This document shows, one piece after another, positions 14,051 through 54,085 of a DNA stretch of 63,401 bases. The DNA comes from Chrysochromulina tobinii (Eukaryota; Haptophyta; Prymnesiales; Chrysochromulinaceae), in contig JWZX01003321.1 in NCBI GenBank assembly GCA_001275005.1, positions 1 through 63,401 on the forward strand, read 5' to 3'. The translations under genes were made by a program, and so were the position numbers. A model generated the notes under the pieces. That model made no database searches and was not told the origin of the DNA. It saw only the letters and a list, made by a program, of their open reading frames with translations. How positions within the stretch are numbered: the first letter of the stretch is position 1; each line of letters starts with the position of its first letter.

Positions 14051-16456
14051 ATGGCCAAGTTTCCAAAAAGTTCAAAAAAGTTTGACTTCGTCACGCGCGG
14101 CGAAGAGATAAGAATGGAGCTTGTCCTACCTCAGCCGACACCGGAGGAAACGGCGCCCGAGCCGCCGGAGCCGGCGCCGGAGGGCACAGAGGCGGAGCCG
14201 CGCGGCATATTGAAGACAAACGTGAAGGTGACACGGACAGTGATGGTGAGGGCCTTGATCCACCGTTTGCTGGACGTCAACCTCGTGCTTCAGCAGTTCG
14301 CAGTGAAATCACAGATTGAGGCCAGCTGGTTCGAGCCCGAGCTCAAGCCGTTGACGAGCAAGAGTACGACGACGACGATGACTTTGGCGGACGTCGAAGC
14401 GGCGCGCTCCATCGCAGTCGACAGGAGCCGCACGAACCAGTACGTGGGCCATTTGTACTGCTACCTGCCCTCTGAGAAGGAGGAGGATCTTGAAGCCGAG
14501 AAAAGCGCTAAGCGCTTTTGGGCCCCGCGGCTCTACTTTGACAACGTGCTCACGATGGAGAACGAAGAGTCGTGGTACCACTTTTATGATTCGGCACCCG
14601 GCGAGGCTTCGAATCCTCCGATGGTGTGCCTGCACTGGTCGTTCACGGGCACCTTCTCCGAGCCCATGGAACTCTCCTCATTCCCGCTCGACGCGCAGAT
14701 CCTCACGATGCGCCTCGTGAGCGGCCATGAGGAGGTGCGTGCGGCCAACCCCTCCGTCGAGAAGCGTACCATCGTCCAACGCGGCGCCAGGGTGCGCGCG
14801 AAGCAGGTGGAGCTCGTCAAGAACGCGTCGTCGAAACGCCGAAGCAATCTGCGCACGCACACCTTCCTGCAGGCGCATGAGTACACTCTGTACCCGCGCC
14901 TCAATTTCCACGCTGGAGAGACACGTGAGGAGGATTCGTCCTCAGCCAGCGTGTACGCCGCTGATGGCCTCGGAGTGCCACGGATGGCCTCCCTGATGGC
15001 CCCTCGATGACCTCCCTGATGGCCTCCCTGCATGGCCTCCCTCATTGCCTCCCTTGATTGCCTCAGGTACCCTTGATTGCCTCCCTCATTGCCTCCCTTG
15101 ATTGCCTCTCTCATCAGGTACCCCTTGATTGCCTCCCTCATTGCCTCCCTTGATTGCCTCCCTCATCAGCTACCCCTTAATTGCCTCTCTTGATTGCCTC
15201 CCTTGATTGCCTCCCTCATCAGGTACCCATTGATTGCCTCCCTCATCAGGTACCCCTTCATCGACATCCAGATGCGCGTGCGCCGCCGGCCATGGAACTG
15301 GTTCTTCAATGTCGTCTTTCCGCTCTTCATCCTGCAGGGCAGTTTGGTCACGACGTACGCCATCGACACGGGGCTTGCCGATCGCGCAGGCGTGACCATC
15401 ACGCTCTTGCTCGCCATCATCGCCTTCCGGTACGTGGTGACCGAGAAGCTGCCGCAGATCTCGTACGCCACCCTGATCGACCTGTACGTGCTGAGCAGCT
15501 TCGTACTCGCCGCCCTCATCATCGGCGATCAGACGTGCTTCGGGCTCGGGCTCTACGGCGAGAAGCGCGACCTGCGAGTCGAGATCGCCTCGCCGTTTGA
15601 TTGGGTTGAGGGTGCGGACGGAGGGTGGACGCAGCGGCAGGTGGAGATTGGTGGGCCTCTAGTTCACGTCTTCCTCGTGTGGGTGACGATCCACGGCGTG
15701 ATCGTCCTTGCCATCCTCGCGCGCGCCGCCTACTTCTATCGGGACGAGGAGTCCTGGGGATACTCGGAGACGACCCTGTGGATTGGAGCCCTCGTCCCGG
15801 GCTCGATCTCAGACGATGGTAAGAGCGACCCGCGGCTCACTGATGAGGCCACCTCCGCCCTGGGCGCCTTCCTCGCGCACGTGCTCGACGAGAGCCTGCC
15901 CAACCTGTCCAAGCGCTGCCGGTTGAGCACATGGACGCCCGATGCTGCCAACGCCGTGATCCATAACCTCAGCCGTCATGCCAACGGCCAGGAGGGCGAT
16001 GGCTATCGGGGCACGACGCCTTTTCTAGTCGCGACGTTTGCGTCGGCGAGCGACGCGCGAAAGGTGCTCGCCTTTGTGGCCGAGGTCCTACCAGACGACG
16101 AGCATGAGTACAAAGAGGAGGTGCTTGCTGAGGACGTGCGCCTCGCTAAGCCGTACTTCCGCTCGGGCGTCATCAAGGTGGAGCTCCTCGATGAGAAATA
16201 CCTTTGCCTCACTACGAGGAAGGTCCTTTCGCGCAAGGTGCTCGAGGCCAAGGGCAGGTGGAGACCCGCTCTCATAGGGGCCGACGCCATCATGCAGCGT
16301 TCGATCACCGCGATGAGCAAGAGGGTTCGCTGGGGCGGAAAGGCGGGGGGCGAGGAGTCCGACCGTTGGACTGGCAGTCCCTTAATGACTCCGACCAGCG
16401 TACCTGCCAGCGACTCCCTCAGATGGTCCTCTGTGAAGCCGTACATTGAAGATTGA
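14051..16456 (+). CDS. Pentameric ligand-gated ion channel (Cys-loop superfamily) subunit
   Basis: Proposed exons are 14051-14952 and 15250-16456 (702 residues); splicing restores SVYPFIDIQMRVRR. The N-terminal half matches the ligand-binding beta-sandwich: RFWAPRLYFDN (loop A region), then LHWSFTGTFSEPMELSSFPLDAQIL, the family's pre-FPxDxQ block. The Cys-loop cysteines are not evident. After R(Y)PF come M1 (WFFNVVFPLFILQGSLVTTY), M2 (VTITLLLAIIAFRYVVTEKLP), M3 (ATLIDLYVLSSFVLAALIIG) and M4 (VHVFLVWVTIHGVIVLAILA), in the right order and spacing. An unusual ~190-residue cytosolic C-terminal extension follows M4. No N-terminal signal peptide is seen, so an upstream exon may be missing. Ligand and ion selectivity cannot be read. 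Confidence 0.82.
14953..15249 (+). repeat. Intron of the ion-channel gene, built of tandem acceptor-like repeats
   Basis: This 297-bp intron is almost wholly made of units of the type TTGATTGCCTCCCTCA. Four internal units copy the real 3' splice junction plus the first exon bases (CAGGTACCC-like, near 15064, 15115, 15166 and 15219) before the junction I use at 15249/15250. The intron opens with GTACGCC and the exon with GTACCCC, so the two ends are also similar. Confidence 0.85.
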
Positions 16457-16949
16457 GCTTTCCGGTGGCGCGCCGCAGGCTGCACATCGCGTCGTCCTGA
16501 GACGGTCTTGTTCGGGTTTGCGAGGTCTGTTCTCTGTGTCAGCATGACTGTGGGTTTAGCTTTCGGATTGTTTGTGTACGGGTTGGGCCGACATAGGCAT
16601 AGTTCAGCTTTAGCGGTTCTCTATATGGGCCAGACTATATGGCGCTACGTAGACGAAATCAAAATCATAATATTACGCCTCTCCATCCAGTACCGGGACA
16701 GTTTGTGTGTGATGTAGAGATCGGGTGAGAGAAGGAACGTCTTTCAATATCCCGGCTCCCCCCGGTGTTTTTGAACCGGGACAGTACCTAACCACGTCTG
16801 CTAACAGCCAAGAGAGTTATTGAGACATTACTTCACTCACCCGATCTCTATACACTCAGTCTACAGTCACTCGCTCCCTCCCTCACGCACTGGTTCTGGT
16901 ACAATTGTAACGGACATCGACATGCATTCGTTTGAACTAGGTTTAGAGA
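16457..16949. other. Intergenic, upstream of the FkbM gene
   Basis: A 493-bp, relatively AT-rich gap with no supported gene. It holds a short inverted version of the dispersed CACCGGGGGAGCCGGGA motif (16751-16767, read on the minus strand) and two copies of ACCGGGACAGT-like sequence (near 16691 and 16775). Confidence 0.4.
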
Positions 16950-18044
16950 ATGGATTACTTCTTCACGAACGCGACGGTGTGCGCGGCCTCCTCTTGCACC
17001 TCGGCGTCGCTATCGCACACTCTACCGCTGGAAGCGTGGCGGTCCTCGCACACTGCGCTGGCATCGATTGCCATGCGTGACAGGTGCCATGACTGCCCTA
17101 CGATTGAGATGCACCCAGGGCTGCGCCCGTGCTCGCGCAGCCAAGAGCGGCAGGAGGTCTTTGTGCTCGCGCTGGCGACTGCGCTCGGGAAGCCGCACGA
17201 CGGCTTCTTCGTCGAGCTTGGAGGGCACGATGGGCTGCGCGCGAGCAACACGGTGTTCACAGAGAGCTGCCGAAGCTGGCGCGGGCTGCTCATTGAGCCT
17301 AACCCCAGCGCATTCGAGCTGATCCGGACGCACCGGCCGGGTGTGCTGGCAGCCCGTGGCGCGGTGTGTACCGTGCGCGGCAGGGCGACCTTTGCAGCGC
17401 GTCGCTCCGTCAGCTCAGCCAGGCATGGCGTAGCGCGCATGTCCGCGGACGAGACGGGTGGCCTCGAGACGCTCATGAATCAGAACTTTGAGCGCGCGGG
17501 CTACAAGGAGCGCGCCCCCACGGCGTGGCTCAACACGACGCGCGCTTTGCGCATCGACGTGCCGTGTGCACCTCTTCACGACTACCTTGCCCTCTTCAGT
17601 GTGCGCCGTGTCGACATCTTTTGGCTCGACGTGGAGGGGGCCGAGCTTGCGGTGAGATGCACCGAGATGCTCCGTCGAGACTGCCTCATCAACACACCGT
17701 GCCCACACTGTCCCCTCCCCAGTGCTAGCGTGTGGACTCGCACTGAGCAGCTCCGAGCGCATGCATGCACGTGTGCTGTGTTTCGTCAGGTGCTCGAAGG
17801 CTTTGATCCGACCAATCTCGGTGGGATCTCAATCGGTATTCTCGTGGTGGAGATGCGCTTCAACGACGCTCGGCGTACCTTCCGTACGCTGCGCCTTCTC
17901 AGCGGGCTGGGCTTCGAGCTGGTGCGAGCGCTGCCCGTGTGGAATTACAAGATCCTTGACCTCGTCTTCGTACGCCCCGACGCACCTTTGGGTTTTATGC
18001 CGCCGGCGACGACGGCGGCCATGGCGCCGCTGCCGTCAACATGA
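16950..18044 (+). CDS. FkbM-family methyltransferase
   Basis: Proposed exons are 16950-17651 and 17790-18044 (318 residues). The 138-bp intron (GTGAGA...CGTCAG) is a multiple of three and open, so retention would add 46 residues inside the domain; removing it restores the usual VEGAEL-A-VLEGFDP. Family motifs: DGFFVELGGHDG (SAM-binding), NTVFTE, WRGLLIEPNP, VDIFWLDVEGAEL and, after the intron, ILVVEMRFND. FkbM-type enzymes O-methylate sugars, fatty acids or other small molecules. Some protist members are Golgi or surface-glycan proteins. The N terminus is Ser/Thr/Cys-rich without a clear signal peptide. It lies between the ion channel and the Stealth gene on the same strand. Confidence 0.85.
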   Translation: MDYFFTNATVCAASSCTSASLSHTLPLEAWRSSHTALASIAMRDRCHDCPTIEMHPGLRPCSRSQERQEVFVLALATALGKPHDGFFVELGGHDGLRASNTVFTESCRSWRGLLIEPNPSAFELIRTHRPGVLAARGAVCTVRGRATFAARRSVSSARHGVARMSADETGGLETLMNQNFERAGYKERAPTAWLNTTRALRIDVPCAPLHDYLALFSVRRVDIFWLDVEGAELAVRCTEMLRRDCLINTPCPHCPLPSASVWTRTEQLRAHACTCAVFRQVLEGFDPTNLGGISIGILVVEMRFNDARRTFRTLRLLSGLGFELVRALPVWNYKILDLVFVRPDAPLGFMPPATTAAMAPLPST

Positions 18045-18838
18045 GCAGCAGCAGCAGCGAGAGTGAGGGCAAGGAGGGGCGGCGACGTGGACTCGGCTTC
18101 CCCAAAGCCGCCCTCGAGCTTCTAAATAGGCAGAGCCGTAACCGTCCGCCGGGCGCCAACGTGCGCTTGATGCAAGGGCGCGTGGGAGGCCGTTATGTCG
18201 TCCCGCCGCCCTCGTCGATCCTTGAGTGCGCAGTGTGGGCGGCGCCGAAGAGCGACCGCCAAAGTCACGGCAACGGTACGCTTGTGGCGGCGCATGGCAT
18301 GCTGCGCATGGAGCGTGTGAACGGCGCTAATCGGACCCGTGATTGGACCAGCTGGCGCGTCCATAAGAAGTTGGACCAGCTGAGCTTCGTGCGGATGAAG
18401 AGTGAGAGCGCAAGCGTATGCTGAGAGACGAGCGAGATGTAACTCAAGACGTCAAGAGAGATGGCGCACGGCTCACGCTAATCACGCGGACGAAAATAAC
18501 GAGCACGATAACCATCATCGCAGATCCGTAGCCAAGAGCCGGAAGACATGCACGTGGTCGGCTGCGCATTGCTGCCCTTGATGCGAGCCTTCGGCTTCGC
18601 CGCCGCGGGGGCGGTAGCTGTGGCTGGCATGGGTCCTGCCCGCGACCGTCGCCTGTCCTTCTCTTCCTTAGCCTGTTTGCTCGGTTTGTGTTGCGTGCTG
18701 TGTCGCGTTAATATTGGCTATGGATATATGACACATCCCAAGAAATGACAGCGTTTTCAGGGTCAACTAGCAGTTCACAGTCGGCCTTGTTTTCACACCT
18801 TGCTCCGAGACGAAAGAGCGAGCGTGCTCCGTCCGTGG
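18045..18838. other. Intergenic / 3' UTR and promoter region
   Basis: This 794-bp gap lies between two plus-strand genes. An open frame of 127 codons begins on the FkbM stop (ATG at 18041), but its composition (Ser/Arg/Gly) and lack of motifs make it more likely 3' UTR. An AT-rich patch near 18705-18735 (ATTGGCTATGGATATATGA) could be a core promoter of the Stealth gene about 110 bp downstream. Confidence 0.4.
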
Positions 18839-20747
18839 ATGTGGACTGCCATAGGTGTGCTCGCGGTGGCGCTGCTTGTGGCGCTGTCAGCGCTCGCATG
18901 GATTTCGTTTCGGCGCGAGATCGAAGTGCGGCACTGGAAGCAGGTAGCACGGCAGCAAGAACAGCACGCCAGCGAGATGCTCTTCAAACAGAGAGAAGTG
19001 CGCAGACAGCACGATGAACTCCAGAGCTGGATCGATGATTACTACGCGCTCGACTCTGCGCGGCTGCAGGCTGAAATGGGGCCTCGACGTGCTGGTCGTG
19101 CAGTCAACAACAACAACAACACTGGCAGGCACTTTGACAGTTCTCCATCTGTCGTCGACTACGTGTTCATGTGGGTGGACGCAGGTAACCCTCACGTCGA
19201 GTCGACGATGGCTTCAGCTTTGCGCAACAAGCAGCTCTCTCGCAGGCCCGACATTCAGCGGGTGAGGGATGACGGCACCTTTCAATTTGCGCTGCGGTCG
19301 GTGTTGCAGACGCCCCGGTTGGAGGCGGCGATCCGCAACGTGTACATCGTGACGAGCGGCGAGCTGCCACCGTGGCTACTCCCGTGGCTGGGAGACGTGC
19401 CGAACGACGTCCGTTCTTCACTCTTCACGCGGACACCTCTGCGCGCCCCGCTGCAGCCGCTGGTCGATGAGTGCCAAGGGCGCGCTTGGCGGGCCTCGCA
19501 TGGGCATGCTGTACGAGCGCGCAGCCTGTACGTCTACCCTCACAACGCCTTCTTCCCCGAGCCGCTGCGGGCGCTGCCGACGTACAACTCAAACGCTATT
19601 CTCGCCGCATTGCATTGGATCCCCAACATCTCGCGCTGGTGAGATTGCATGAGATTGCATGAGATTGCATCGGATCTCAAACATCTGACCGCCCCTCACC
19701 TCGGCGCACCCCTCGTCCTCCCACCACCGCAGGTTCATCTACTCTGACGATGACATCGTGGCCAGTGGGCGTGACTTCGGTCTTGAGTTTTGGTGGGAGG
19801 CGGGTGGCGCGGCGGCAGGCGGCGCGGCGGCAGGAGGCGAGGCAGCGGGCGGGGCGCAGCTAGTCTTCTTTGATGCGAGCTTGCCGGTACGGCGCAACCA
19901 GTCGACCGACGGCAACGTCGTTGAGCGGGCCATGGTCTACATGGCTGGCGTGCTCGACGAGGTAGACGATACCCGCGAGGGCGCTTGGATCCAACGTACC
20001 GGTGCTGGCGAGAGAGCGGCGGGTAGCGTGGTGGGCGGCGCGGCGGGTGGTGCGGTAGGAGGCTTCGAGCGGAGCAGTGCGCCACAGCAGAGTTCGAGTG
20101 AGTCTCGGCGCCTTCCCCCCCCTCGGCGCCTTCCCCCGCCTCGGCGCATCCCCCCCCCTCGAGAGTACGCGCCGGCGGTGCACATGCCCGTGCTCTTCAA
20201 CGTGCGCGTACTCTGGGAGATTGAGTCGAGGTGGCCGGAGCTCATGTCGCGCACTAGGGCCCACAGGAAGCGCGAGATGGACGAGATCGAGCTCAACTTC
20301 TTCTACCAGCACTACCTCGAGCTGAGCGGCTACCCGACAGCGCGCCACGCTATCAAGCGCTTTCGTGTGGGGTACCACCCGGTGCAGCTGTGCGGCACCC
20401 CGTGGGGAGGCTCCATCTGCAACAGCACGCTCAGCAGCGACCGCTACAACTTTGTGTGCTTCAACGACGGCTTCAACCACGGAGCAGATGGCGCACAATG
20501 TGAGTTATGCTACGAGCGCGGCGTACGCCACCTTCAGCACCTGCTGGGCCACCGCTTTGGCACTTTTGGCCCACCGGCCGGCGATCATGGGCGAGTCTCC
20601 ACCACTCTCTCAACCACTCCAATGGGGCTGCAAGCGAGCCTATTAAGAATGAATCGTGCGGTGCGCGGCGGAGCCGGAGCGAGGGAATCCCACGCAGAAG
20701 CGGGCCCAGTAGTACGTATCACTTTGATTAAACACGTGGACACGTAA
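18839..20747 (+). CDS. Stealth-family hexose-1-phosphate transferase (GNPTAB-like), type II membrane protein
   Basis: Proposed exons are 18839-19638 and 19733-20747 (604 residues). The 94-bp intron restores HWIPNISRWFIYSDDD, which is Stealth region 2. ATG 18839 begins a signal anchor (AIGVLAVALLVALSALAWI). Region 1 is DYVFMWVDAGNP; region 2 includes FALRSVLQTP, NVYIVTSGELPPWL, LPTYNSNAILAALHWIP and YSDDD; region 3 is the basic RTRAHRKREMDEIELNFFYQHY; region 4 is YNFVCFNDGFNH. Stealth proteins transfer GlcNAc-1-P or related sugar phosphates to glycans, for example lysosomal targeting in animals. A poly-Pro stretch near 20098-20165 could hide a 66-68-bp intron. The last ~70 residues look unlike family ends, so the 3' end is uncertain. 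Confidence 0.82.
19639..19732 (+). repeat. Stealth-gene intron with a tandem 10-bp repeat at its donor
   Basis: The intron begins GTGAGATTGCAT and then repeats the 10-mer GAGATTGCAT twice more. The repeat includes the donor-like GAGATTG and the ATTGCAT core also seen in introns of other genes here. Confidence 0.8.
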
Positions 20748-21156: not shown

Positions 21157-21172
21157 TCAATCGAAGGTGTCG
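21092..21172. repeat. 27-bp direct repeat spanning the beta-mannosidase stop codon
   Basis: GAGACCGTCTCTCAATCGAA plus seven more bases occurs at 21092-21118 and again at 21146-21172 (54-bp spacing). The second copy contains the beta-mannosidase stop codon on the minus strand. The spacer carries short AATCTCGTC repeats. Confidence 0.9.
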
Positions 21173-24100
21173 CAGAGTGAGCGTACACGGAGCCCAACGC
21201 CAAAGTCGTCCCACGAGCCTTGCTTCTGCGCGGTGAACGTGATGGTCTTTTCGGAGCCCGCAAGCATCATGAAGGCTCCGTCGCTAAAGGCACCCGCGAC
21301 GTGGAGCGACGCGAGGCTCACGAAGGCTGCTGTGCGCTCGGCACGCAGCCGCACGCTCGCGTTGAGACCTCCCACGGATGGTGGTGGCACATCAACTGAG
21401 AGCACAACAACGCTGGCTTTGGGAAGCGTAGCGTATTTCATCGGAGTCCAAAAATGGAACGCCTCGATGGGCCCGGTCCCGTTGCCACCGAACGAGAGAC
21501 GCACGAACGTCTCGTTGCGAGTCAACTTTGGGCCCGCGCCGCCGCTCGCGGCGGCGAGCAGATCGTCGATGTTCACCGTGTACCCCTCTTGCGTGCCGAG
21601 TGCGGGGGCGACCGCGAGGTGTGTCACCCGCCACAGGACGACTGCGGGCGAGTCGGCCCACCGATAGATCTCGAGGTCGAGATTGTCAGAGAGATCTCGC
21701 GTCAGATCGCTCGTCAGATGGACGGTCAGCATGCCGGTGCCTGCCGCCTCGGTGGCGCTGACGAGGACCGGCGCAAAAGCGCGCGCCACGCCGTGGTGCG
21801 AGAGCTTCGGAGTGCCATCGAATTCAATCGTCGACCAACTCGGCCCGGGCCAAATGTCATTGAGCTGCCAGTAGAGCACGCCCATGGTGTTCGTCGGCAT
21901 CGAGCGCTGCCGCCGCCACTGCGCGAAGGCGGTCTCGTAGCAACGCCCCTGCTGCAACTGGGTCAGCCACAGGTAGTCCGAAAACACTTTGGGCTGCATC
22001 GTCGACACGTTGGCGGGGGGCACCTTGAAGTGCGAGCTCATCATCTTCTCGACCTGATGAGGGAGACAATCATATGCAATCAGGGGGCCATCAGGGCGAT
22101 GAGGGGCACCTTGAAGTGCGAGCTCATCAACTTCTCGACCTGATGAGGGAGGGCAATCATATGCAATCATCTTCTCGACCTGCTCGTTGCCCAGCTGGTG
22201 GCGCTGCCGGTAGAAAAGGAGCCACGAGTCGCGCGAGTGGTCCTCGGGCGCCGTGACGGGCGCGTAGCTCTCAAAGGAGGGGAAGGATTGAAAGCCATGC
22301 TCCGAGATGAAGCGGGCGAGTGGGTACCTGATGAGGGAGGCAATCATAGGCAATCAATGGACCATCAGGTCAATTGGGGGCACTCAGGGAGCCGTGCTCC
22401 GAGATGAAGCGGGCGAGTGGGTACGTGGACGGATCTTCGCAGTCCGCATTGTAGTTGTAGTAGTGCCGATCTCCCCACGAGGGCGCTTGGGGATAGTCGG
22501 GTGCGTCGCCCATCGCGTCGCCCCAGCGCTTGACCAACGGAGAGCGCCCGTCGAGATCGCTCGAGATGAGCCCGTTCGAGGGCGAGCTATCTACAAACGG
22601 GCGACCCTCGGGGTCGCTCGAGAGGACCGAGGGCCGTATCGTGTCGAGATAGAGCTTCACGTAGTCTGCGACGTACAGGTCACGGTTGACGCGGCTGAGA
22701 TTGAACCATTGCATCGCGTACTCGTTCTCATTCGAGCCGCCCCAGATGACAATGGACGGGTGCGCCGCCAGTCGCGCCACCTGCTGCGTCACCTCCTTGC
22801 GCACGAGGTCGAGAAAGTGGCCGTCGCGGGGATAGAGCGCACACGCAAAGATCATCTCCTGCCAGATCGACGCAGATCGAGATTTGGCCCGAGGGCAGTG
22901 ACAATCAGTGGCAATCAGTGGCAATCAGAGGCAATCAGAGGCAATTAACGACACTCACCTGCCAGATCATGATCCCGAGCTCGTCGGCGACATCGTAGAA
23001 CCAGTCGGGCAGGTAGCGCCCGCCGCCCCACACCCGCACCATGTTCATGTTGGCGGCGGCCGCGAGGCTGAGCAGCCACCGCGCGCGCTCACGGGTCTCT
23101 CGCGGCGCGAAGACATCCAGTGGAATCAAATTGGAGCCTTTGGCGAAGATGGGCACCCCATTCACACGAAAGTAGAATGAGGTACCGCTCGGCAGCCCCT
23201 CCGCCGGCGGCAGCGCAGGCTCCTCGACCAGCTCCACGGTACGCAGCCCAACACGCTGCCGCAGCGAGGACATGGGCGCCGTCGTGGGCACGCACGCCGA
23301 CGCCTCCTCGGCGTCGCTGCCGCGCCCGTCGCCAGCAGCAGCAGCAGCAGTGGGCACGGGCGTCATCGTGGGCACGGGCGTGGCGGCAGCGCAGGGCACC
23401 AGCGAGGCACGAAGCTCGTAGAGCGGCTGCTCGCCGTAGCCGCGCGGCCACCAGAGCGTTGGTGCGTCGACGAGCAGCCTTGCAAGATAAGGCGCTGCCT
23501 CCTCCTCCTCCTCTGCCCCCTCGGCCAGCTCGACGGCGCCAGATTCAGCGACGACCGAGCGCCGCGCGTGCACGCTGGCAAAGGTCAGCGACGTTTGGTA
23601 CCGTACGGCGGCCCTGGCGGCGGCATGGGCAGCATGGGTGGCGTGGGCGGCGTGGGCGCTCGCACAATCTGGCCGGCAGAGCTCGAGCCGAAGGGCCACG
23701 CGGCTTGCATGCAACCGCGTAGCGCTCCAGCCAGGCGCGAGGTGGGCATTCACAGCGAGTACCACCGAGCCGTTCCGCTGATGCTCCTGTGCTATGGAGA
23801 GCCGACGGAGCTGCGGCCCTCCCTCCGAGGCGCTCTTGCTCGGTCGAAGCGTGACGCTGCCCGTGATGCCCGTCGGCATGAAGCTGGGGCCCCAGTCCCA
23901 GCCAAAGTCGGTCGGTGACTTGCGCACAAAGTTTCGGAACGGCAGGCCGCCGACGCACGGTCCGGTTTCGCAAGTCGCATTGTAGACCCACGTGTCGCCC
24001 GGCTCGCTCCATGTGTGGTAATAGATGGACGCGGGCACAGGGTACGGATAAGCGCTGGCGCGTGCCATCCCGGCGGCGCGTGCGTTGGTGAACGCGACGC

Positions 24101-24527
24101 TGATTGTGTTGACGCCCTGGTTGAGGACGGCCTTGGCCACAAACAGCTCCCACGTGATGAACGCGCTGTCGGTGTTCCCGGCGAAGATGCCGTTAATGCT
24201 CACCGTGGCGACCGTGTCGACGCCCACCATGGTGAGCAGCGAATCGGCCTTGAGCAGCGGGTCGTCGGCGCCAAGGGTGAAGGTGCCCTCAAACGTCCAG
24301 TTTTCGAGGGCCACCCAGCTCCAGTCGCGCTCATTGTAACGATACAGCGGATCACCCTTGAGCACTCCCGCGGCCATCAGGGCGGTGTGCGCGACGGCCG
24401 GAAGCGGTGCCGGCACGTCGATCGTGCGGTTGGAATTGCGGCAGCGCCATGAAATGATCGGGTCTGAGGCGGCGCAGCCGTATGCCGCTGCGATGAGAAG
24501 GAGGAGGGACTTGACGTTTGTGGTCAT
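21157..24527 (-). CDS. GH2-family beta-mannosidase, secretory
   Basis: Proposed minus-strand exons are 24527-22959, 22858-22425, 22327-22180 and 22053-21157 (1015 residues). A signal peptide (MTTNVKSLLLLIAAAYGCAA) fixes the start. The N-terminal sugar-binding domain has WTFEGTF, GWDWGPSFMPTGI and WWPRGYGEQPLYEL, as in beta-mannosidases. The barrel gives FRVNGVPIFAKGSNLIPLD, VRVWGGGRY, the acid/base Glu in IVIWGGSNENEY and the nucleophile Glu in FISEHGFQS; GVLYWQLNDIWPGPSW follows. It would remove terminal beta-linked mannose from glycans in a lysosome-like compartment or outside the cell. A His/Ala-rich insertion and an acidic loop lie in exon 1. All three introns carry junction duplications. 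Confidence 0.93.
22054..22179 (-). repeat. Beta-mannosidase intron 3: nested duplication, open in frame
   Basis: This 126-bp intron starts with the same 14 nt (GTCGAGAAGATGAT) as the next exon. It also contains an internal copy of the exon-4 junction region (22107-22169 repeats 22021-22083, spacing 86 bp). The length is a multiple of three with no stop codon, so retention would insert 42 residues. Confidence 0.85.
22328..22424 (-). repeat. Beta-mannosidase intron 2 with a 34-nt duplicated junction
   Basis: The first 34 nt of the intron region (22391-22424) and of exon 3 (22294-22327) match at 33 of 34 positions. The spacing is 97 bp, exactly the intron length. The copy encodes YPLARFISEHG, which contains the nucleophile motif. 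The intron ends in GATTGCCTCCCTCATCAG. Confidence 0.93.
22859..22958 (-). repeat. Beta-mannosidase intron 1 with decamer array and duplicated exon end
   Basis: This 100-bp intron opens GTGAGTGTCG, then runs through about five units of TTGCC(T/A)CTGA. It ends with GATCTGGCAG, a 10-nt copy of the end of exon 1. Confidence 0.85.
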
Positions 24528-25184: not shown

Positions 25185-27245
25185 ATGGATTCCTTTTCTT
25201 CCGGCTCGGACAAAGGTGGCGCGACACACGCTACGCTCGAAGGCGAGGCTTTTCTGGAGGCGGTCAGGACGCTCGACCTGATCCAGGACCAGCTTGACTG
25301 GGCTGATGTCAAGTCCTCATGGAAGTCAGCCGCAGCGCGCTGGGCCAAGCAGCTGAGAAAGTGCCGGTACCCGGCAGACCTCGATCTGCTCTGGAAGCTC
25401 GCGGGCGAGCTGATGAATGGCATCAAACCGACCAACTTTACAGGGGGATGGTTGGTCAACGCCGATGGCAGCGAGTTGACCCGCTACCGCCAATGGCTGA
25501 CCGGGACTGATGCGAGCAGAGCTTGCGCCATCCTCAAGGCAGTCCGGGTGCTGCGTGCGCACCTGGTCAGGGTCGTGGACGGGCCGCTCTACGCGCTTGA
25601 CGGCACGCCCCTCGCCGACGCGGCCCACGCCAGCGCCGCGCCGGCACCGCTTGCCACCGAGCCCGTCATGCGTAGTCAAACGATGACTCCCGTGCCGGCT
25701 GTCGGTCCAGGGATGGCTGAGGGTGAAGGATCTATGGTGCAGCCCAACCATGCTGTAACCTTGGCAAATCGCTGGTTGGTGCAGGAGATGTCCAACGAAA
25801 GGTTGGCAGAAGAAGCTGAACTTTGTGCGACGGAAGTGGAGGAGCATTCATCGGCCTCCGCACCGTGTCACGAGCGGTCAATGCGGGAGGCTCCAGCTGC
25901 AGTAGTTTTTGCGGAGGAGCTCGCCATTGTTGAGGACGATTCAGCCGCGGCTAAACTTTGTGCGACGGAAGTGGAGGAGCATTCATCGGCCTCCGCACCG
26001 TGTCACGAGCGGTCAATGCGGGAGGCTCCATATGCGGAGGTGCTCGCCATTGTTGAGGACGATTCAGCCGCGGCCGCTCAGCCGTGGTGCATCGGCGGCA
26101 GCGTCCCGGGCGAGTCAGCGCCCACGAAGATGCAGTTTGCCTTGAGCGTGTCCGACGAGGACGCGTCCGAGGAGGCGGTCGCTTTCGCCGAGGAAGCTAG
26201 CCAGCTCTCAGTAGATGGCGATGCTCATTTCGCCACCACCGAAGGCATTGCTACAGGCGCGGCGTATGGTAGCCAGGTGGAGGTGGACGCCAACGGTGTG
26301 GCAGAGTCGACGGATGGCGGTCGTTACACGACGCGCCTGGCCAAAGCGTGCGATCTGTGTCACGAGAACCGTCTGAAGTGCATCATGCTGCCCACAGGCT
26401 GGTGTGAGCAATGCACGATGCGCGGCATCGAGTGCAAGCGGAGGATGGAGAGAAAGCGCGGCCGGCCACGCGTGACGGCAGAGAACATTGTGCAGCTCGT
26501 GCAGCGCCGGACCGCCAAGCAGCAGCTGGCAAGCAGCAGCTGGCGCGTGCCAAATTCCGTGAACGCGATCGGCGCGGGGCCATCGACGGGGCCACCACAC
26601 ACGGGAGCCTTTCCCAGCTTTCATGACCCCATCCAGGCGGCTTACGCGGCGGGGGTACAGGCAGCGACGCAAGCGCAGCTGGCGGCGGCTATGATGCAGT
26701 ACCACGGGCCGGCGCACACGTTCTCGCACATGCCCCCCGTGTCATTCATGGCGCCCCACGGCGTTCAGCCTTTCGGCGCCCCTGCCCACCAGGCGCCACA
26801 GCACCCTGCCTTTGGCGGCGCGGCGCAAGCCATGTTCAACGGCGCGGCGATGGCAGCGATGGCGGGCCAGTACGGTGTGGGCGGCATGGATGGCTCGGCG
26901 GCCTATGAGCACTACGCCGCGATGTACGCCCACTTTCAGCAGCAGCAGCAGCAGCAGTCGCTGCCCCCGGGGTACTCGGGCTACGATCATCAGTCGGCGT
27001 ACAACCCGAGCGCAGTCGCAGCGGCAGCGGCAGCGGCGTATGCGGCGGCGCAGGCGTCGGGGTCGGGGGCGGCATTACTGGCGCCGGACACGCCCTCCAC
27101 GGAGGGGCCAGCAGGGCATGCTCATGCATCGAGCGACCTGCTGGCACCTCCATGCATGCCGGCGCCGGCCGTGAATGCCAGCACGCAGCCATGGGTCTTC
27201 GAGGTTCCTTTCGGGAGCCAACAAAGTGTCGACCACTCAAAGTGA
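25185..27245 (+). CDS. Zn2Cys6 binuclear-cluster protein with AT-hook, candidate transcription regulator
   Basis: An intronless 686-residue protein. ATG 25185 is followed by a helical N-terminal domain (about 20-150; ARWAKQLRKCRYPADLDLLWKL) of unknown family. A fungal-type binuclear zinc cluster sits at 389-417: Cys389-X2-Cys392-X6-Cys399-X7-Cys407-X2-Cys410-X6-Cys417 (ACDLCHENRLKC ... CEQCTMRGIEC). It is followed at once by basic KRRMERKRGRPRV, whose RGRP is an AT-hook core. The C-terminal third is Ala/Gln/Met/Tyr-rich, like an activation domain. A 135-bp in-frame duplication gives two copies of LCATEVEEHSSASAPCHERS. DNA binding is a good inference; targets are unknown. Confidence 0.8.
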   Translation: MDSFSSGSDKGGATHATLEGEAFLEAVRTLDLIQDQLDWADVKSSWKSAAARWAKQLRKCRYPADLDLLWKLAGELMNGIKPTNFTGGWLVNADGSELTRYRQWLTGTDASRACAILKAVRVLRAHLVRVVDGPLYALDGTPLADAAHASAAPAPLATEPVMRSQTMTPVPAVGPGMAEGEGSMVQPNHAVTLANRWLVQEMSNERLAEEAELCATEVEEHSSASAPCHERSMREAPAAVVFAEELAIVEDDSAAAKLCATEVEEHSSASAPCHERSMREAPYAEVLAIVEDDSAAAAQPWCIGGSVPGESAPTKMQFALSVSDEDASEEAVAFAEEASQLSVDGDAHFATTEGIATGAAYGSQVEVDANGVAESTDGGRYTTRLAKACDLCHENRLKCIMLPTGWCEQCTMRGIECKRRMERKRGRPRVTAENIVQLVQRRTAKQQLASSSWRVPNSVNAIGAGPSTGPPHTGAFPSFHDPIQAAYAAGVQAATQAQLAAAMMQYHGPAHTFSHMPPVSFMAPHGVQPFGAPAHQAPQHPAFGGAAQAMFNGAAMAAMAGQYGVGGMDGSAAYEHYAAMYAHFQQQQQQQSLPPGYSGYDHQSAYNPSAVAAAAAAAYAAAQASGSGAALLAPDTPSTEGPAGHAHASSDLLAPPCMPAPAVNASTQPWVFEVPFGSQQSVDHSK
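25821..26075. repeat. ~135-bp tandem duplication inside the Zn2Cys6 gene
   Basis: Copy 1 is 25821-25955; copy 2 starts at 25956 and is slightly shorter because of a small internal deletion. The long stretches that match are nearly identical, so the duplication is recent. Confidence 0.9.
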
Positions 27246-34281: not shown

Positions 34282-36124
34282 TCACGGGGTCGCGTGGACA
34301 TGCCGAGCAGTGTATGCCACCTTGTCCAGCACCAGGTCCAGCCCCGCAGCCCCGTCTAGGCTCGCACCTACGGGCATCAGCAGCTTGGCACCTCGAAGGA
34401 AGCCGAGGACGCTTGCCGTTGTAGCTCGATCCATCTCGGCGCTCGTCGTGCCGAGGGAGGTCTTCAGGACAAGGTTGAGCCAATGCGGCATGGTATACGC
34501 GAGGTCACAGAGCCCTTGATGGCCAGCCCCCGCAATCGTGAGCGTGCATGCCGGGCGGGCGGCGCCGACGAGCACTCGACGAGCCCAAATTTGGTACCAG
34601 TGGAACTCGACCCATTGCTCGGACCAAATCGTCAGCAGGGGAAGGTGCTGTGTGAGAGGCGGTGCACGGCCTCCGCACGCCCGCAGCCCCTCGGCCTCGC
34701 TCGCATACCTGATGAGGGAGGCCATCGGTGGTCATCAGTGGCACTCAGAGGCAAGTAGCAGCCTCTCGGCCTCCGCTCGCACACCTCGTATCGTTGAAGA
34801 CACCATCGTAGCCTGTGGCTGTCCACACGCGGCGCGGCATCCAATCAACTGCCGGGTCGAGTGCGAAGCACGCGCCGATCCGGGCAGGCCGGATGCGATC
34901 GCTGCTGCACTCGTCCCGTGCACCGGCCACATCAGCGCCGTGTTGGGCCGCGACCGCGCCAGCGCCGTGTTGGGCAGCGACGCGGTCGGCGCAGACCGTC
35001 AGAGCGGTCGCGCCGCCAAACGAGTGGCCTCCCAGGACCAGACGGTCAATCGCGAGGCGCCCCCGCAGAGTACTGAGCAGGGTCTCCACCTGCGCGTCGG
35101 CCAGCCCGTCCATTCGCACGTGCGTCCCCCGAGCCCCACCCGACAGTACCGACCCCTCCTCGATCGCTTCCAGAAACTCGAGCGTGTCCTCGACATTCGT
35201 GGCGCGGATGAGCGTCTGTGCGCGTCGTGCTTCCTTATAAGCCTCCGTGGCCGGCTCGTAGCCGAGGTCCATGACGGACGCATCGTACGGGAGCGCTGAG
35301 GGTGCACCCGTCGAGGGATCCGCCTCGACGAAGCGCGCGAGCGAGGAGGAGCGGTCCGTGTGCTCCACAAGGAGAACCAGAGCCCCGGCGGCTGCGAGTG
35401 AGAGCGCCATCGAGCTGCTCGTCTCTCGAGTGGCCGTGAGGCCGTGGGAGAAGACGATGACAGGCAGCTTACCATCGCCGGAAGGGGTATCGGCAGCCGA
35501 GGGCAAGGCAGGGGTCGCTCCATACTTCGCGCGGATGCCGATCGCCGCCCAATGGCCGAGAATCCATCTCGGGAGATACGGCCGGAGCTCCCTTGGCGCC
35601 GCATTCTGAATGAAGGCACGGGTGAGCTTGTGCCGATCTTGCATGGCGATGTAGCCAGCGCAGTCCTGGTGCGCACTCGTTGGGTAGAGCATGCGGCCGA
35701 TGATGCGCCGCCCCTCGCCCCTCTTGTTGCAACGCACCTCATAGTCCACAACACCAACGCACCACGGGCCAGGAACCGGCTTCAAGCTCGGCAAGCGAAA
35801 GGCGGCGTCAATAGCCACCGAGATCGCACCAAACACCGCACCACACACTCCCCATCCGGCCGCGGACAGGCACAAGCCAAGACGCGGAGCAGTCAGCTGC
35901 CAGTAGTCTGGCCGTCGCCACGTGGCTATCCGATGGGCGACCATCACGCCCAGCGGCGCACAGATTGCCACGAATGATGGTGGCGTGAAACCGAGCAGGA
36001 CTCGCGCAGCTGTCCAGAGAGGGAGGGACCAGATGAGCAAACGATCTACGTTGCGGTAATAGTGCGGCCACGACATGATGATCGATCGAGCCTCTACCTC
36101 ACGGCGTTGCGCTGAGCACTTCAT
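34282..36124 (-). CDS. Platelet-activating-factor acetylhydrolase-like serine hydrolase, membrane-anchored
   Basis: Proposed minus-strand exons are 36124-34785 and 34708-34282 (588 residues), with a 76-bp intron; splicing gives FNDTRYASEAEG. Two hydrophobic segments near the N terminus (LLIWSLPLWTAARVLLGF; LGLCLSAAGWGVCGAVFGA) suggest membrane anchoring. The alpha/beta-hydrolase core shows the family signatures LPVIVFSHGLTATRETSS, nucleophile Ser in VLGGHSFGGATAL, the acid in ACFALDPAVDWMP and catalytic His in IAGAGHQGLCDL (exon 2). PAF-AH enzymes cleave short or oxidised acyl chains from the sn-2 position of phospholipids. The start is the first ATG; MSWPHYYRN, 16 codons on, is an alternative. 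Confidence 0.88.
34709..34784 (-). repeat. PAF-acetylhydrolase intron with duplicated junction
   Basis: This 76-bp intron starts GTGTGCGAGCGGAGGCCGAG; the next exon starts GTATGCGAGCGAGGCCGAGG. The two align over about 27 nt with few differences. The centre holds TTGCCTCTGAGTGCCACTGA-type units, and the intron ends in GATGGCCTCCCTCATCAG. Confidence 0.9.
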
Positions 36125-49090: not shown

Positions 49091-49227
49091 CATAGTGGGG
49101 AGTTCCGAGAGTGTTCGATGGTTTGCGAAAAGGTCAGCCGCCAGCCTGACACACACGCCTGTTTCAGAACCGTTTGTTCACACCAGGCCTTTGTTTGGCG
49201 AGCCCGCCGGAAGAGCCGACCGAAAGC

Positions 49228-50812
49228 ATGCGACGATGCACGCCATCGTCTCCATTATGCGCGCTCGTGCTGCTTTTCGTGGCTGCTTCTGAAAGTGCAG
49301 CAGCACTTCTTGGCGACGCTGCGTCGTCGCAGCATCTAGGCGATGCCAAGACGGCGGCGTCTTGGCCAAGGAAAGAGAAGAAGTGCCACGGCTGGGGCGC
49401 GGTGACGACCAAGCGCGTGTACGCCTTCACCGTGTCTAGCAACTATTTCTCGGGTCTAGCGGTCGTCATGTACTCTGTCCATCGGGCACGATTGCGGCAC
49501 CGAGGAGGGCATCGTGAATCGGCCTCCTTCAACGACACCGGCTACCTTCTCCTCTGGAGTCGCCTGGAGCCCGACTCGATTCTGTCCGCCGAGCAGACCG
49601 AGCTGCTCGTCCGACTCGTAGCGCCGACCCATATCTTCTGGCGCGAGGTGCCCGCTCCGCGGCTGCTCGACTGGTCGCGTAAGCGAGGGCTCACGAGCGT
49701 CCCCGGCCAGTACTCAACCTTCTTCCGGTTAGACCTGTTCACCTCGTGGAATGACGAGACCTGCGCCGATGTGGCGGCGGGGAGCTTGCGCAGCGTCATG
49801 TACCTCGACTCGGACATGCTCGTGCTGCCGAACGCGCCCTCGCTCGACGAGCTGCACGACCGAATCTGGGACGCGCAGCGCAAGTCGGGCACGCACTATG
49901 AAAACGCCGGCACGCACCACCGATCGCCGCTGCACACGGCTGAGCGCCCGTCGTGGGTGATGCACGCGAGCGTCAACTACTTTCTCGGGCATGCCATCGC
50001 GGGCATGCTGGGCACAAAGATGCCTAGCAAGCTCGCCTCCGTCGACACGACGGGCATGGCCAACTTCCAGACCCTCAATGCCAACTTCCAACCCAATGCT
50101 GGCTTCTTAGCGTTCTGCTCGCCGGCGCCGCCTGAGTTCATGGTTGCGGTGAACGCGAGTGCGCAAGGAACGGACCAATACATGATGTGGAACGCCGTCA
50201 AACTGCTGAACGGCCATTGGAAGGTCGGCGCGCACTCCCCATTCCACCGTCCCATCTGATTGCATGCTGATTGCATGCTGATTGCATGCTGATGGAATGT
50301 TGATGGCATGCTGATGGCATACTGATTGCATTCTGATTGCATGCTGATCGACTCCCTCATCAGGTTGGCACGGACTTCCCGCCGCTACCGTCCCCGGCTC
50401 CCTTAGTACAATTTCAGCTGCACACCGACTGGTACATGAATGGCAAGCCGGTCATGGACCCGCCATGCTATGCGCCCAGCATGCACGTGCTCACCACGGC
50501 GCCCCTCCCCTTCCCCACAGGTACATGAATGGCAAGCCGGTCATGGACCCCGCCCTCCTCTCCAAGTACCGAGCGGCGCACTGGATGGGTCGCGAGAAGC
50601 CCTGGGGAGTACGGGTGCAGAACCTGCACAACCAGACCTACGGCACGCTCCGGCGAGCCCCGAGGGACGAGATGAGCCTGCCAATCATGAATCAATACTG
50701 GCTGGAGCTATGCGAGGACGCCATGCGCAGCTACGTGGTGAGCAATGGGCTATCGCCAGCGCTGATCGATTGCAGAACTTCAGGAGGTCAGGGGGAGATT
50801 TCAGGAGGTTGA
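49228..50812 (+). CDS. GT8-type nucleotide-sugar glycosyltransferase, secretory
   Basis: Proposed exons are 49228-50223, 50364-50431 and 50521-50812 (451 residues). The start at 49228 gives a signal peptide (MRRCTPSSPLCALVLLFVAA). The GT-A fold is seen in KRVYAFTVSSNYFSGLAVVM, FFRLDLF, the metal-binding DxD in VMYLDSDMLVLPNA, YENAGTHHRS, FQPNAGFLAF and TDQYMMWNAV. The last exon closes with HTDWYMNGKPVMDP and RAAHWMGREKPW, the kind of HxxG/W end seen in glycogenin-like GT8 enzymes. It would transfer a sugar from a nucleotide donor in the Golgi or ER. Both introns show junction duplication. Family class is likely, specificity unknown. Confidence 0.78.
50224..50363 (+). repeat. GT8 gene intron 1: TGATTGCATGC array and similar junctions
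   Basis: This 140-bp intron starts GTCGGCGCGCACTCCCC and the next exon starts GTTGGCACGGACTTCCC, a diverged version. The middle consists of about eight TGATTGCATGC-type units. It ends GACTCCCTCATCAG. Confidence 0.85.
50432..50520 (+). repeat. GT8 gene intron 2: exact junction duplication
   Basis: Positions 50431-50461 and 50520-50550 are identical over 31 nt (GGTACATGAATGGCAAGCCG...), spaced by the 89-bp intron length. The intron therefore begins with a complete copy of the start of the next exon (YMNGKPVMDP). It has no decamer array; the rest is a pyrimidine-rich run before CACAG. Confidence 0.95.
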
Positions 50813-51181
50813 CGACCTGACGATCACGATCACGCTGAACGCGTTCACGATCACGTGGTCTGTGTGCGGAGCTGCAGCTGGTGCGGAGGGGTCTCTGGCC
50901 CGTGTTTGATTGTGCATTGATGTGGACGATTCGCATTCGGACTCCGTCGGGTCTCTCGGCGTTCCGAATCGAATAAAATGAAGTCTCCATTAAATAAACA
51001 CACTCAAACACCTAACACGGATCGGATGTGAGTTTGACTATGTCACTTGTCAGCCGCCGCGGCCGGGCTGGAGTGCTCGGAAGTCCGGCACGGCTGATAC
51101 TGATTTGTGTTTTGTGATATGCCGTGCGTGCGCAGGCAAGCACCAAGCTGAGGCCCGGACGCCGGCTCGCGCGCAGCACGC
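50813..51181. other. Intergenic, between convergent genes
   Basis: 369 bp between the GT8 gene (+) and the five-exon protist gene (-). It contains a doubled GATCACGATCACG / TTCACGATCACG near 50820-50855 and no gene. Confidence 0.35.
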
Positions 51182-53022
51182 TCAAGCGCCAGCGCCGTCG
51201 ATCGCCTGGACCGCGTGTTGGAAGATGTCGATGGTGCACTGGACGCGGCGCTCGAAGCCATAGACGGGCACCGCACCGCACCACGTGCCCGCTCGCTCTT
51301 CGACCAGCTTGGCGTGCCGCGCTGTGTGGAGCTGCTGCAGCTGCGCCAGGTACGCACCGGCATCGGTGCGCTCGGCAGAGCCCTCCGGCATCCGGAGCAT
51401 CTCGCCCGCTGTGGGGAAAGCCTTGAGCGCACCGATGCGGATGAGCGCCTCCATGAAGCCCTCAAAGGGGAGCACCTGGATGCAATGAGGGAGGCAATCA
51501 GTGGCCATCCTCCATGAAGCCCTCAAAGGGGAGCACCTGGATGCGCCATCAGATGTGCATCTGAGGTACATCAGAGGAGGCAATCGGACGTCATCAAGGG
51601 CACTCATCCGAGGCCGAATCAAGTGCAATCATGAGTAATCGGGGGCAGTCACCGTGTCCTCGTAGTGGCCTCGCGGCGTCTGGGAGTCGCCTACGGCCAT
51701 CCGCGCCCAGCTGAAGCATCGAACCTGCATGCAATGAGGGAGGCGATCAGTGGCAATCAGTGGCAATCAGCCATCCGCGCCCAGCTGAAGCAGCGCACCG
51801 CATCTCGCTCCGAGAGATCGGGTCCGATGACGTGGAGCCTCTTGAGTGCGTGCAGCCATGGGCGGAGTGCCACTGTGGGGATTGCTCGCTCGGGTGCATA
51901 GGAGCGCTCTCGAATGGTGTGTTTCTGGCGCTCCGCTGCGTGCGACGCGGACTCGTTGCCCACGGCGCTCGTCGAGCTCACGATGCATGCAAAGATGCGC
52001 TGGAGCGCGCCCTCGTTACGCTTGAGCACCTTGCATGTTGGCTCGCAGTAGCAGTAGAGGCGACGGAAGGCATCTGGGTCGGCGGTCACGAGTGCGCCCA
52101 GCCGCGACTGCACGCACACGCCGAGCGTCGTCACGTTATCAGAGGTCATCAGAGGTCATCAGAGGTCATCAGCGGTCATCAGCGGTCATCAGCGGTCATC
52201 AGACGTCATCAGACGTCATCAGACGTCATCAGACGTCATCAGACATCATCAGCGGTCATCAGAGGTCATCAGCGGTCATCAGCGGTCATCAGCGGTCATC
52301 AGCGATCATCAGCGTACCTGCACGCACACGCCGAGCAGTTGCGAGACCGCATCGCTCACGTCAGGGATCTCGTGCGTGAGCACGAACATCGAGATCGAGA
52401 TGCGAACGAGCACGATCAGGAACTCGGGGCGTGAGAGCGCGTCACCACCGTCACCTCCTCCTCCCCCTCCCTCGGCCACAAGGTGCCCCCCGGCCCCGAG
52501 GGCGGCTGATGAGGTGTCCATCTCGTAGGTTTCGGAGAAGATGCGCTCAAAGTCCGAAAGCTTGTTGAACCTGGACGAAACGGTGGTGAGCTGGCAGTCC
52601 GTCACGAGCGCCCCCCAGGACGCGAGCGAGAGGGAGTTGAGGGAGCCGTTGAGTGAAGCATAGTTCGAAAAGAGGGAGGTGACTAGTTGGTTGTGCGCCC
52701 AGATCGCCTCCCCGACTTCCTCCACCTCATCGGGGATGCCGTCGCCGTCCTCGTCAGCTTCCTCGTCGCCGTCTCCGCGCAGGATCACGCGCACCAGCCC
52801 GAGGCTGAGCGCGTTCGTCCAGTCAGCTGAGAAGCGCGTCAAGCGCACCTGCAGGCAGACTCTCGAGGACAATTAGTGGTCAATAAGATGACAATTAGAG
52901 GTCAATTAGAGGACAATTAGAGGTCAATTAGAGGACAATTAGAGGTCATCAGGTATCATCCAGTCCGTTGAGAAGCGCATGAAGCGCACCATGACGCCGA
53001 ACATCATCATCATCACGCTCAA

Positions 53023-53061
<39 letters not shown>

Positions 53062-54085
53062 GCACAAGATTCCAATCGATGCCACTCAGAGGCAACCACA
53101 TGGGCACTCAGAGGCACTCAGAGGCAGTCTGAGGCAATCTGTAGCCATTTCGCGCACACACCTCCTCCGTGTCGTACAAGTCCTGGCTCTCTGCCCAGCT
53201 GGTCCGTGGTGCCCAAAGGCTGCGATACACGTCGAAGGGGGTCGGCGGCTTCATCTTGATGAGGCGTGCAATTGGCCGGCGCGACTTCGGCTTCGTCGGG
53301 CCTCCGAGCTCGAGCGGATCTCCGATATGACGATCTCCGAGATGGTGATCTCCGAGATGGCGAGGAGGCGCCAAGTATCTGTTTCGTCGAACCTCAGCGA
53401 TCTCGCGAACGAAGGCGCTCTGTGCGCGCTGCGTGTGCGCGTTGAGCGAGCGGCGCGCGATGGGATCTGCCGAGAAGTACGCGAGCTCAGCCACGGCCGA
53501 CCGTTGCCGATGACGTGACTCAAACTGGTCCGCCGCCACCGCACACTCAGCATCGTGGGCAGAGGTGGCAGCGAGTCGCGCCGAGAGAGTCGCCTTGACG
53601 ACCCGCGAGACCAGAGCTGCCTTAGTGCCGGCCCGAAGCCAGCGCGCGCGCACGCTCGAGACGATGCCAGCATCACAGGCAGCCTCCGTGCTTGCACCAC
53701 TGTCAAGGCCAAGGTGCTGGTGGGCTTTCGCCGCCGCCAGATCCGTCGCACGCTTCAACTGCCAAGCGCTCCTTGTCTCCACCATCTTTGGAGTTGTGTC
53801 GAAGCGCTTCGTCGCGAGAGCGCCTCCTCCGCTGCTGCTGCCTTGTGGGCCGTCGACGAGTGCGACTTTCTCCATGGGCCGCGCCGAACCGCCGCCCGGA
53901 AGGCGCTCCTTCTCGGATCGTGGTGTCCATTGCATAACGGCAGCACCGCCGCCGTACACGAAGGGGTCGCCCGTGAATGGGTCCGTCCTGAGGTCTTGCA
54001 GGCGCCGTCCAGGCTTGCGGCCACGCGACTCCACAAGTGGTCGTTGCTGCAGCAAGGCGACGATCTGGTCGTCGACGAGCGACAT
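51182..54085 (-). CDS. Conserved protist protein of unknown function, EF-hand-like repeats
   Basis: Proposed minus-strand exons are 54085-53162, 52848-52318, 52107-51799, 51724-51653 and 51475-51182 (709 residues). All four junctions are phase 0 and restore smooth sequence: DTEE/VRLTRFSADW, GVCVQ/SRLGAL, RDA/VRCFSWARMAV, YEDT/VLPFEGFMEAL. The N-terminal 300 residues are basic with little fold. Then come two related helical units: W...LFSNYASLNG, F..IFSETYE and SRPEFLIVLVRIS, and later LYCYCEPTCKVL, LQRIFACIV and LPFEGFMEALIRIGALKAFP. The helix-loop-helix spacing recalls degenerate EF-hands. I believe related proteins exist in other algae but cannot name a function. Internal repeats in four introns are listed apart. 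Confidence 0.65.
51476..51652 (-). repeat. Intron 4 of the five-exon gene: second copy of the exon-5 start
   Basis: A 31-nt stretch spanning the acceptor (51450-51480) is repeated exactly at 51511-51541 (61-bp spacing), so two equivalent acceptors exist (ATCCAG/GTGCTCCCC). The copy between them contains GATTGCCTCCCTCATTGC. Confidence 0.9.
51725..51798 (-). repeat. Intron 3 of the five-exon gene: duplicated junction plus decamers
   Basis: The first 30 nt of the intron (51769-51798) and of exon 4 (51695-51724) match at 27 positions, spaced by the 74-bp intron length. The remainder is three TGATTGCCAC units and CGCCTCCCTCATTGCATGCAG. Confidence 0.93.
52108..52317 (-). repeat. Intron 2 of the five-exon gene: 17-copy decamer array and duplicated exon end
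   Basis: Seventeen 10-bp units (plus-strand AGCGGTCATC and variants AGAGG/AGACG) run without a break from 52141 to 52310. On the coding strand the unit is GATGACCGCT. The last 18 nt of the intron (CTCGGCGTGTGCGTGCAG) exactly copy the end of exon 2, 210 bp away. Confidence 0.95.
52849..53161 (-). repeat. Intron 1 of the five-exon gene: CTAATTGxCC array, partial exon copy, (ATC)n
   Basis: This 313-bp intron holds seven decamers of CTAATTG(A/T)CCT type (52872-52945). It also has a diverged copy of the exon-2 start (52960-52990 against 52820-52848), a GATGAT microsatellite (53019-53061 on the plus strand as CATCATCAT) and TGCCTCTGAG decamers next to the donor. The exon copy, preceded by ATG on the coding strand, could also be a remnant or alternative small exon. 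Confidence 0.85.

Follow-up and report, generated by a model that had tools for sequence, protein, structure and literature searches.

Introners are recognised as near-identical introns at many unrelated positions, whose insertion brings little or no coding change. They are established elements, including those that take one splice site from the duplicated target (Gozashti et al., 2022, PMC9860276; this and the other papers cited below are drawn upon in part). The question raised here is why introns in unrelated genes of one stretch of the Chrysochromulina tobinii genome carry direct repeats of their own exon junctions. The stretch, hereafter the window, comprises 63,401 nt and is contig C2162 in a eukaryotic genome assembly (53.15 Mb, 2,253 contigs; GC about 62%), where the chlorophyll-binding family PF00504 has 58 matches. 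With a methylmalonyl-CoA mutase frame from this genome, 13 matches reached E<=1e-300, among them one from the haptophyte Scyphosphaera apsteinii (77%). The answer that we favour, with a little more confidence than doubt, is that the window introns are introners with long target-site duplications, that is, copies of intron sequence which would have been inserted in exons at G|GT via a target-primed copy mechanism.

An original prediction, made from the letters of the window, had reported such repeats at five intron junctions, and all five were recovered on recounting. The pair at 50431/50520 matched in 31 of 31 positions as claimed (period 89). At 22293/22390 the recount gave 34/35 (33/34 had been placed at 22294/22391; period 97), at 51696/51770 it gave 28/30 (27/30 at 51695/51769; period 74), and at 52108/52318 it gave 19/19 (previously 18/18; period 210). 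The pair at 34708/34784 is diverged, with 25/27 matches, a 1-nt indel and a period of 76 (borders by eye). The equality of repeat period and intron length, which had been stressed, does hold in the sequence; because the AG|GT sits at or inside the repeat, it is automatic and provides no independent evidence. Further pairs were found at 52818/52959 (28/32, period 141), at 51448/51509 (36/36, period 61, a nested insertion at a pre-existing acceptor) and at 22040/22166 (17/17, period 126), the last enclosing 22017/22103 (48/49, period 86), and a 10-nt case was seen by eye in the intron at 22859–22958.

The chance level was assessed in 313,498 bases from 27 stretches (26 fetched stretches and the window). 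Eight of the 26 were picked for holding a filler match, so the sample is non-random and its repeat density does not represent a genome-wide rate. The filters admitted repeats of 15–70 nt, spaced by 50–160 nt, whose copies were separated by 15 nt or more. A total of 115 direct repeats passed, some of them overlapping at one locus, compared with 0 in each of five dinucleotide shuffles run with a looser subset of the filters. A GT..AG phase within 6 nt of the repeat edge was observed in 40 of the 115 repeats, where the median over the 256 dinucleotide pairs was 10; the next-highest pairs were CA|GG with 35, which is the CAGG motif shifted by one, and GA|GG with 30. A mirror arrangement, in which the acceptor comes from a repeat with a terminal CAG, was present in 21. 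All five reported places hold genuine junction repeats, at a level far above chance.

Unrelated sequence separates the repeat copies: 25, 44, 58 and 62 nt in the measured short-period cases of the window, and 109 and 191 nt in two of longer period. The sharing of this filler between introns, also part of the original prediction, was borne out across the genome, where two families recur. Family B is a dispersed element consisting of GCATGCAAGTGCTCACCACGGCGCCC, a pyrimidine stretch and then TCCCCACAG, with the end ..CCCCACAG, and is 36–47 nt long in 27 of 30 sampled copies. A genome-wide search with its 18-nt core, allowing at most 2 mismatches, gave 3,114 matches, compared with 44 for the reversed pattern used as the control. 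The intact 3' end (CCCACAG) had 516 matches (0 in the control) and was followed by GT in 449 and by GC in 27 (476/516, 92%). This context suggests either that insertion is directed to G|GT or that other copies are removed very efficiently, and the data fit both. In family A, units of ~10 nt (TGATTGCCTC with its variants) are arrayed in tandem, and the array often ends in TGATTGCCTCCCTCATCAG or ..CTCATCAG; its end gave 1,216 genome-wide matches and 0 in the control, with GT next in 822. The window holds family-B filler at 50432–50520 and family-A filler in the introns beginning at 22328, 22054, 51725, 51476, 52108, 34709 and 52849, the call for the last being family-A-like. Near-identical introns thus occur at many unrelated positions.

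Among 54 sampled family-B core hits, 37 had a recognisable 3' end and 17 did not; a junction repeat accompanied 22 of the 37. The repeats of these 22 copies extend 8–43 nt to the right of the junction, with 15–43 nt in eight clear pairs of 100% identity; two more identical matches, of 8 and 14 nt, resemble fragments of broken longer repeats. The corresponding introns measure 71–94 nt, apart from one 36-nt overlap hit. A terminal inverted run of at least 6 was found in 0 of 30 family-B elements. Insertions can also be stacked, as shown by two family-A insertions at one AG|GT (22054–22179) and by an insertion across an existing acceptor (51476–51652). On contig C1665 (locus L057, 3380–3680), a family-B unit of a 31-nt target copy and a 40-nt element is duplicated head to tail, with the period of 71 occurring twice and slightly different cores; head-to-tail copying of whole units of target copy plus element is a secondary event at this locus. 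Family-A ends at similar equal spacings were also seen on other contigs (C158, C107). The suggestion of recent intron gain in multiple genes, tied to the junction repeats, appears to have been right.

The splicing of the introns in the window and in the two families is predicted from the reading frame, from homologues and from a paralogue. In the beta-mannosidase gene, excision of three introns leaves a single frame of 1,015 codons, and by eye the insertion sites are read through in the nearest homologues (72% for the top one across the region searched; best 120 of 2,796 matches). In the gene at 51–53 kb, excision of three introns yields one open frame as far as the next, nested intron. A Pfam scan of two spliced pieces gave no family at E<=1. 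A frame test based on codon usage was then applied to predicted introns, for which one third would keep the frame by chance. Of 20 family-B copies, 16 stayed in frame on excision, as did 10/10 of those with both flanks confidently called. In a wider set, the frame was kept in 28/41, 24/40 and 22/40 at flanks of 60, 90 and 120 nt, and in 11/13, 11/16 and 10/11, respectively, when only confident calls were taken.

In the empty-site search, the exon flanks were joined at 12 sites, nine of which were searched in one query. Eight of the nine joined flanks matched their own locus only, in two pieces each. The ninth, from C124 (L054), also matched C2002 (L058) in one uninterrupted piece, with 8 differences in 374 coding bases (98% identical) and a near-identical protein end. 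C2002 is without the 79-nt C124 intron and has a single target copy, with one substitution, and no insert; C124 spliced in silico has the same reading through the site as the empty C2002, apart from the substitutions. Shortly past the stop codon the two paralogues diverge. Intron gain at C124 is the simple reading of this pair, from which we infer the direction of change. Together with the frame test, the pair indicates that insertion would cause little or no coding change, as is characteristic of introners.

The same insert carries a putative trace of its donor. Its 5' letters are foreign to its own gene and match C1665 (3 mismatches in 22), in the tandem-duplicated family-B intron described above; the 31-nt target repeat of that intron contains these letters, and its third copy is the exon itself. 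The C124 insert corresponds to the C1665 intron minus its first 14 nt, with 54 of 57 aligned letters identical and the match exact to the final CAG; these 54/57 include 16 letters that are native exon at C1665. Assuming equal base use, a 22-mer with at most 3 mismatches is expected about 0.26 times in both genome strands, and directly before one of the ~3,100 family-B cores only about 1e-5 times. Because the match lies right before such a core, the simplest reading of the C124 intron is that it copies the C1665 intron, or a close relative, with the 5' end truncated and the 3' end exact. For the other extra letters, a donor search of the fetched loci gave own or weak matches; L051 and L052, neighbours on one contig, have a few extra letters in common, too few to count.

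The favoured mechanism can be described in a few steps. Insertion at G|GT would duplicate about 15–43 nt of the target, and the upstream duplicate would become the 5' part of the new intron, providing its GT and its length. The insert would contribute the presumed branch point, the pyrimidine tract and the CAG of the 3' splice site, and splicing out one repeat with the insert would leave the protein unchanged. In a mirror form, seen with family-A filler (e.g. 52108–52317), the duplicate would give the AG. The mobile unit would most likely be an intron copy, as RNA or cDNA, whose 3' end is exact and whose 5' end is truncated; LINE-like synthesis, primed by the target at a staggered nick, would have placed it in the exon. 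Target-primed reverse transcription, as in LINE and SINE retroposition, produces a fixed 3' end, variable 5' truncation and variable target duplications. The introners resemble this in their fixed 3' end and variable target duplications, with 5' truncation traced in one case (C124). Target-primed copying holds a modest lead over break repair and template switching, which are weighed below. In its strongest form, the proposal is that intron RNA is retroposed and that spliceosomal introns multiply in this way: priming of a 5'-truncated copy would occur at a nick next to G|GT, and the 15–43-nt duplication would build the missing 5' half; to this form we give somewhat less than even credence.

Several observations weigh against target-primed introner insertion. 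Simple priming anchored at the 3' end would not by itself give the mirror arrangement (21/115). A GT..AG at the period is lacking in many of the repeats with family-A filler, which span existing junctions or lie in unassignable stretches. GT was not next in 394 of the 1,216 family-A ends, nor GT or GC in 40 of the 516 intact family-B ends, and 15 of the 37 family-B hits with a 3' end show no detectable repeat, some of these being false hits or old copies. Unlike LINEs and SINEs, the unit is an intron piece of ~40 nt with duplications longer than usual; no poly(A) or other tail was seen on the inserts, and none of the 26 genome matches to the reverse-transcriptase domain RVT_1 is tied to introners. 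Precise loss between the 20-nt repeats is a possible source of the empty site in C2002. A donor match was obtained in one (L054) of two genome-wide tries, the 24-nt extra of L030 matching only itself. Finally, a frame test based on stop codons alone failed to distinguish excision from excision with a frame shift (of 41 junctions, 4 scored better and 14 worse); it is uninformative because GC-rich exons leave several frames open, and the codon-usage test was used instead.

Part of this evidence is better handled by the repair of staggered double-strand breaks, in which long overhangs would be filled in to give the duplicate, intron DNA or cDNA would be captured between the copies, and only spliceable outcomes would survive. 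Such repair would accommodate the mirror form more readily than target-primed copying, and it accounts for the variable repeats, for both GT and AG forms, for the 10-nt arrays and for the repeats without GT..AG; its expected mark, an exon-end sequence that recurs on the other side of the intron, is present here. In mammalian cells, 3' overhangs of about 43–50 nt yield small tandem duplications (PMC8355091), and new introns of Daphnia carry staggered-break repeats of 4–12 bp (PMC4202315). The GT/GC context of 476/516 family-B ends is unexplained by repair unless nearly all non-spliceable copies were lost, even outside genes, and so is the dominance of two families among the inserts; we regard break repair as a serious contender that is nonetheless unlikely. 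Template switching during replication, in which synthesis would exit the gene, copy part of an intron elsewhere, return via microhomology at CAG|GTRCG and recopy 15–43 nt, offers a single mechanism for the GT- and AG-supplying forms. It can point to the GTACG common to donor and target at the return point of the traced case, yet GTACG opens many of the 22 family-B repeats anyway, as expected if it is just a good donor site, and we judge this explanation improbable.

Two further models meet more direct difficulty. A cut-and-paste introner of the DDE or MITE type, as in Micromonas, Aureococcus and dinoflagellates, has the same overall design, with dispersed non-autonomous families, target duplications and a splice site recruited from the duplicate (PMC9860276). 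The target duplications of earlier introner families are 3–9 bp, and 4 and 8 bp in the examples given (PMC9860276), compared with 15–43 nt among our identical pairs. The lack of terminal inverted repeats (0/30), a feature of some such families though not of all, and the transfer of donor target letters in the traced case also count against it, and with the variability of the duplications they led us to reject a transposase with a fixed stagger; cut-and-paste insertion has very little probability here. The original prediction had proposed a simple tandem duplication of an exon segment that contains AGGT; the filler would have to have grown later. This agrees with the AG|GT inside some repeats and with the tandem duplication of whole units at some loci. 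The intron body would then be duplicated exon, whereas unrelated filler lies between the copies and belongs to genome-wide families, and the empty paralogue and the donor match show foreign letters, the C124 insert matching an intron of another gene. For family B, an intron body derived from duplicated exon is contradicted, and we consider this origin the least credible of all.

The features of the window are collected in Table 1.

Table 1. Predicted introns, the beta-mannosidase gene and an element array in the window, with their junction repeats.
Feature	Position	Strand	Details
Family-A intron, 97 nt, beta-mannosidase gene	22328..22424	-	Repeat 22293-22327 / 22390-22424 (34/35); CCAC|GTACCC..CATCAG|GTACCC
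126-nt intron, family A inserted twice in succession at a single AG|GT	22054..22179	-	17-nt repeat (14 from GT), 49-nt repeat (37 from GT)
Family-A intron, 100 nt	22859..22958	-	Exon end GATCTGGCAG (10 nt) recurs at intron end, repeat supplies acceptor; by eye
Beta-mannosidase gene	21157..24527	-	1,015 codons after excising its three introns; start codon assumed
Family-B intron, 89 nt	50432..50520	+	Repeat 50431-50461 / 50520-50550 (31/31); G|GTACAT..CCACAG|GTACAT
Family-A intron, 74 nt	51725..51798	-	Repeat 51696-51725 / 51770-51799 (28/30)
177-nt intron, insertion nested at its acceptor	51476..51652	-	Repeat 51448-51483 / 51509-51544 (36/36) across old intron-exon junction
Family-A intron, 210 nt, mirror type	52108..52317	-	Repeated exon end ..GTGCGTGCAG (19/19) is the acceptor; 10-nt array is the donor
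141-nt intron, family-A-like filler	52849..52989	-	Repeat 52818-52849 / 52959-52990 (28/32), older copy
Family-A intron, 76 nt	34709..34784	-	Diverged ~27-nt junction repeat, 1-nt indel; borders by eye
Serial family-A array ending CTCATCAG|GTACCCCTTCATCG	14953..15249	+	Several landing points of the form CAG|GTACCC(C)TT; position of the donor is an assumption; by eye

At 14953–15249, several CAG|GTACCC-like landing points lie ahead of one exon, which suggests repeated insertion or amplification of a unit at one site. Two other repeats of the window differ from these introns. A 54-nt repeat occurs three times at 55477–55856 (start spacing 53 and 273) and is unlike families A and B, and a direct repeat of 77–86 nt at 25815–26035, with a period of 135, has no GT..AG at the period and is possibly a coding or other non-intronic duplication. 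A 25-nt family-B pattern was also searched in viral contigs and matched one, IMGVR_UViG_3300027760_000958, at whose end (L056, 4320–4554) a family-B element and a 10-nt array are flanked by a repeat. This contig is probably a chimeric assembly, cyanophage-like with an algal end; otherwise it would represent an introner on a viral contig.

Comparison with known systems places these introns among the introners while setting them apart in several respects. They follow the design of the introners of Gozashti et al., in which short non-autonomous families can reach thousands of copies, the mRNA often shows no scar and, in some families, one splice site comes from the element and the other from the target duplication (PMC9860276). 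Set against the 3–9 bp of earlier families, the present introns have variable duplications of ~15–43 nt, and they differ too in having no inverted repeats and, in one traced case, donor letters. An introner in a Chrysochromulina genome from a metagenome has 4-bp duplications and itself carries the 5' splice site, which is the opposite of the arrangement here, where the GT comes from the target (PMC9860276). The Daphnia introns ascribed to staggered-break repair likewise show repeated events at one site, whereas their repeats are 4–12 bp and the source of most inserts is untraced (PMC4202315). In the potato RdRp case of tandem duplication, the period also equals the intron length and AG|GT lies in the duplicate; the intron body there is the duplicated segment, and here it is foreign filler (PMC4974935). 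Amoebophrya introners share direct repeats at the exon-intron borders of repeated introns and differ in having direct repeats of 3–5 nt, inverted repeats of 8–20 nt and mostly non-canonical splice sites (PMC7789003). Among 213 introns surveyed across all classes, repeats of 4–30 bp were reported near splice sites, with a mean of 11.4 and, among the rows listed, imperfect matches for the longest (PMC11782384). In the parts of the open-licence literature searched, no introner with variable 15–43-nt duplications or a traced donor tag was found. What would be new here is the long variable duplications and the traced donor tag, the introner design itself being already known.

Where new introns come from has been an open question for a long time; among the known introner families, many resemble DNA transposons, and inserts at staggered breaks are mostly untraced. 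One small genome here combines the insertion footprint, the empty site and the donor-matching tag, so that descent from donor to target could become traceable genome-wide and the question of an RNA or a DNA intermediate directly testable. If intron RNA does multiply by retroposition, each new intron would be part element and part host exon and may carry traces of its donor gene, and intron lineages would be readable from these tags.

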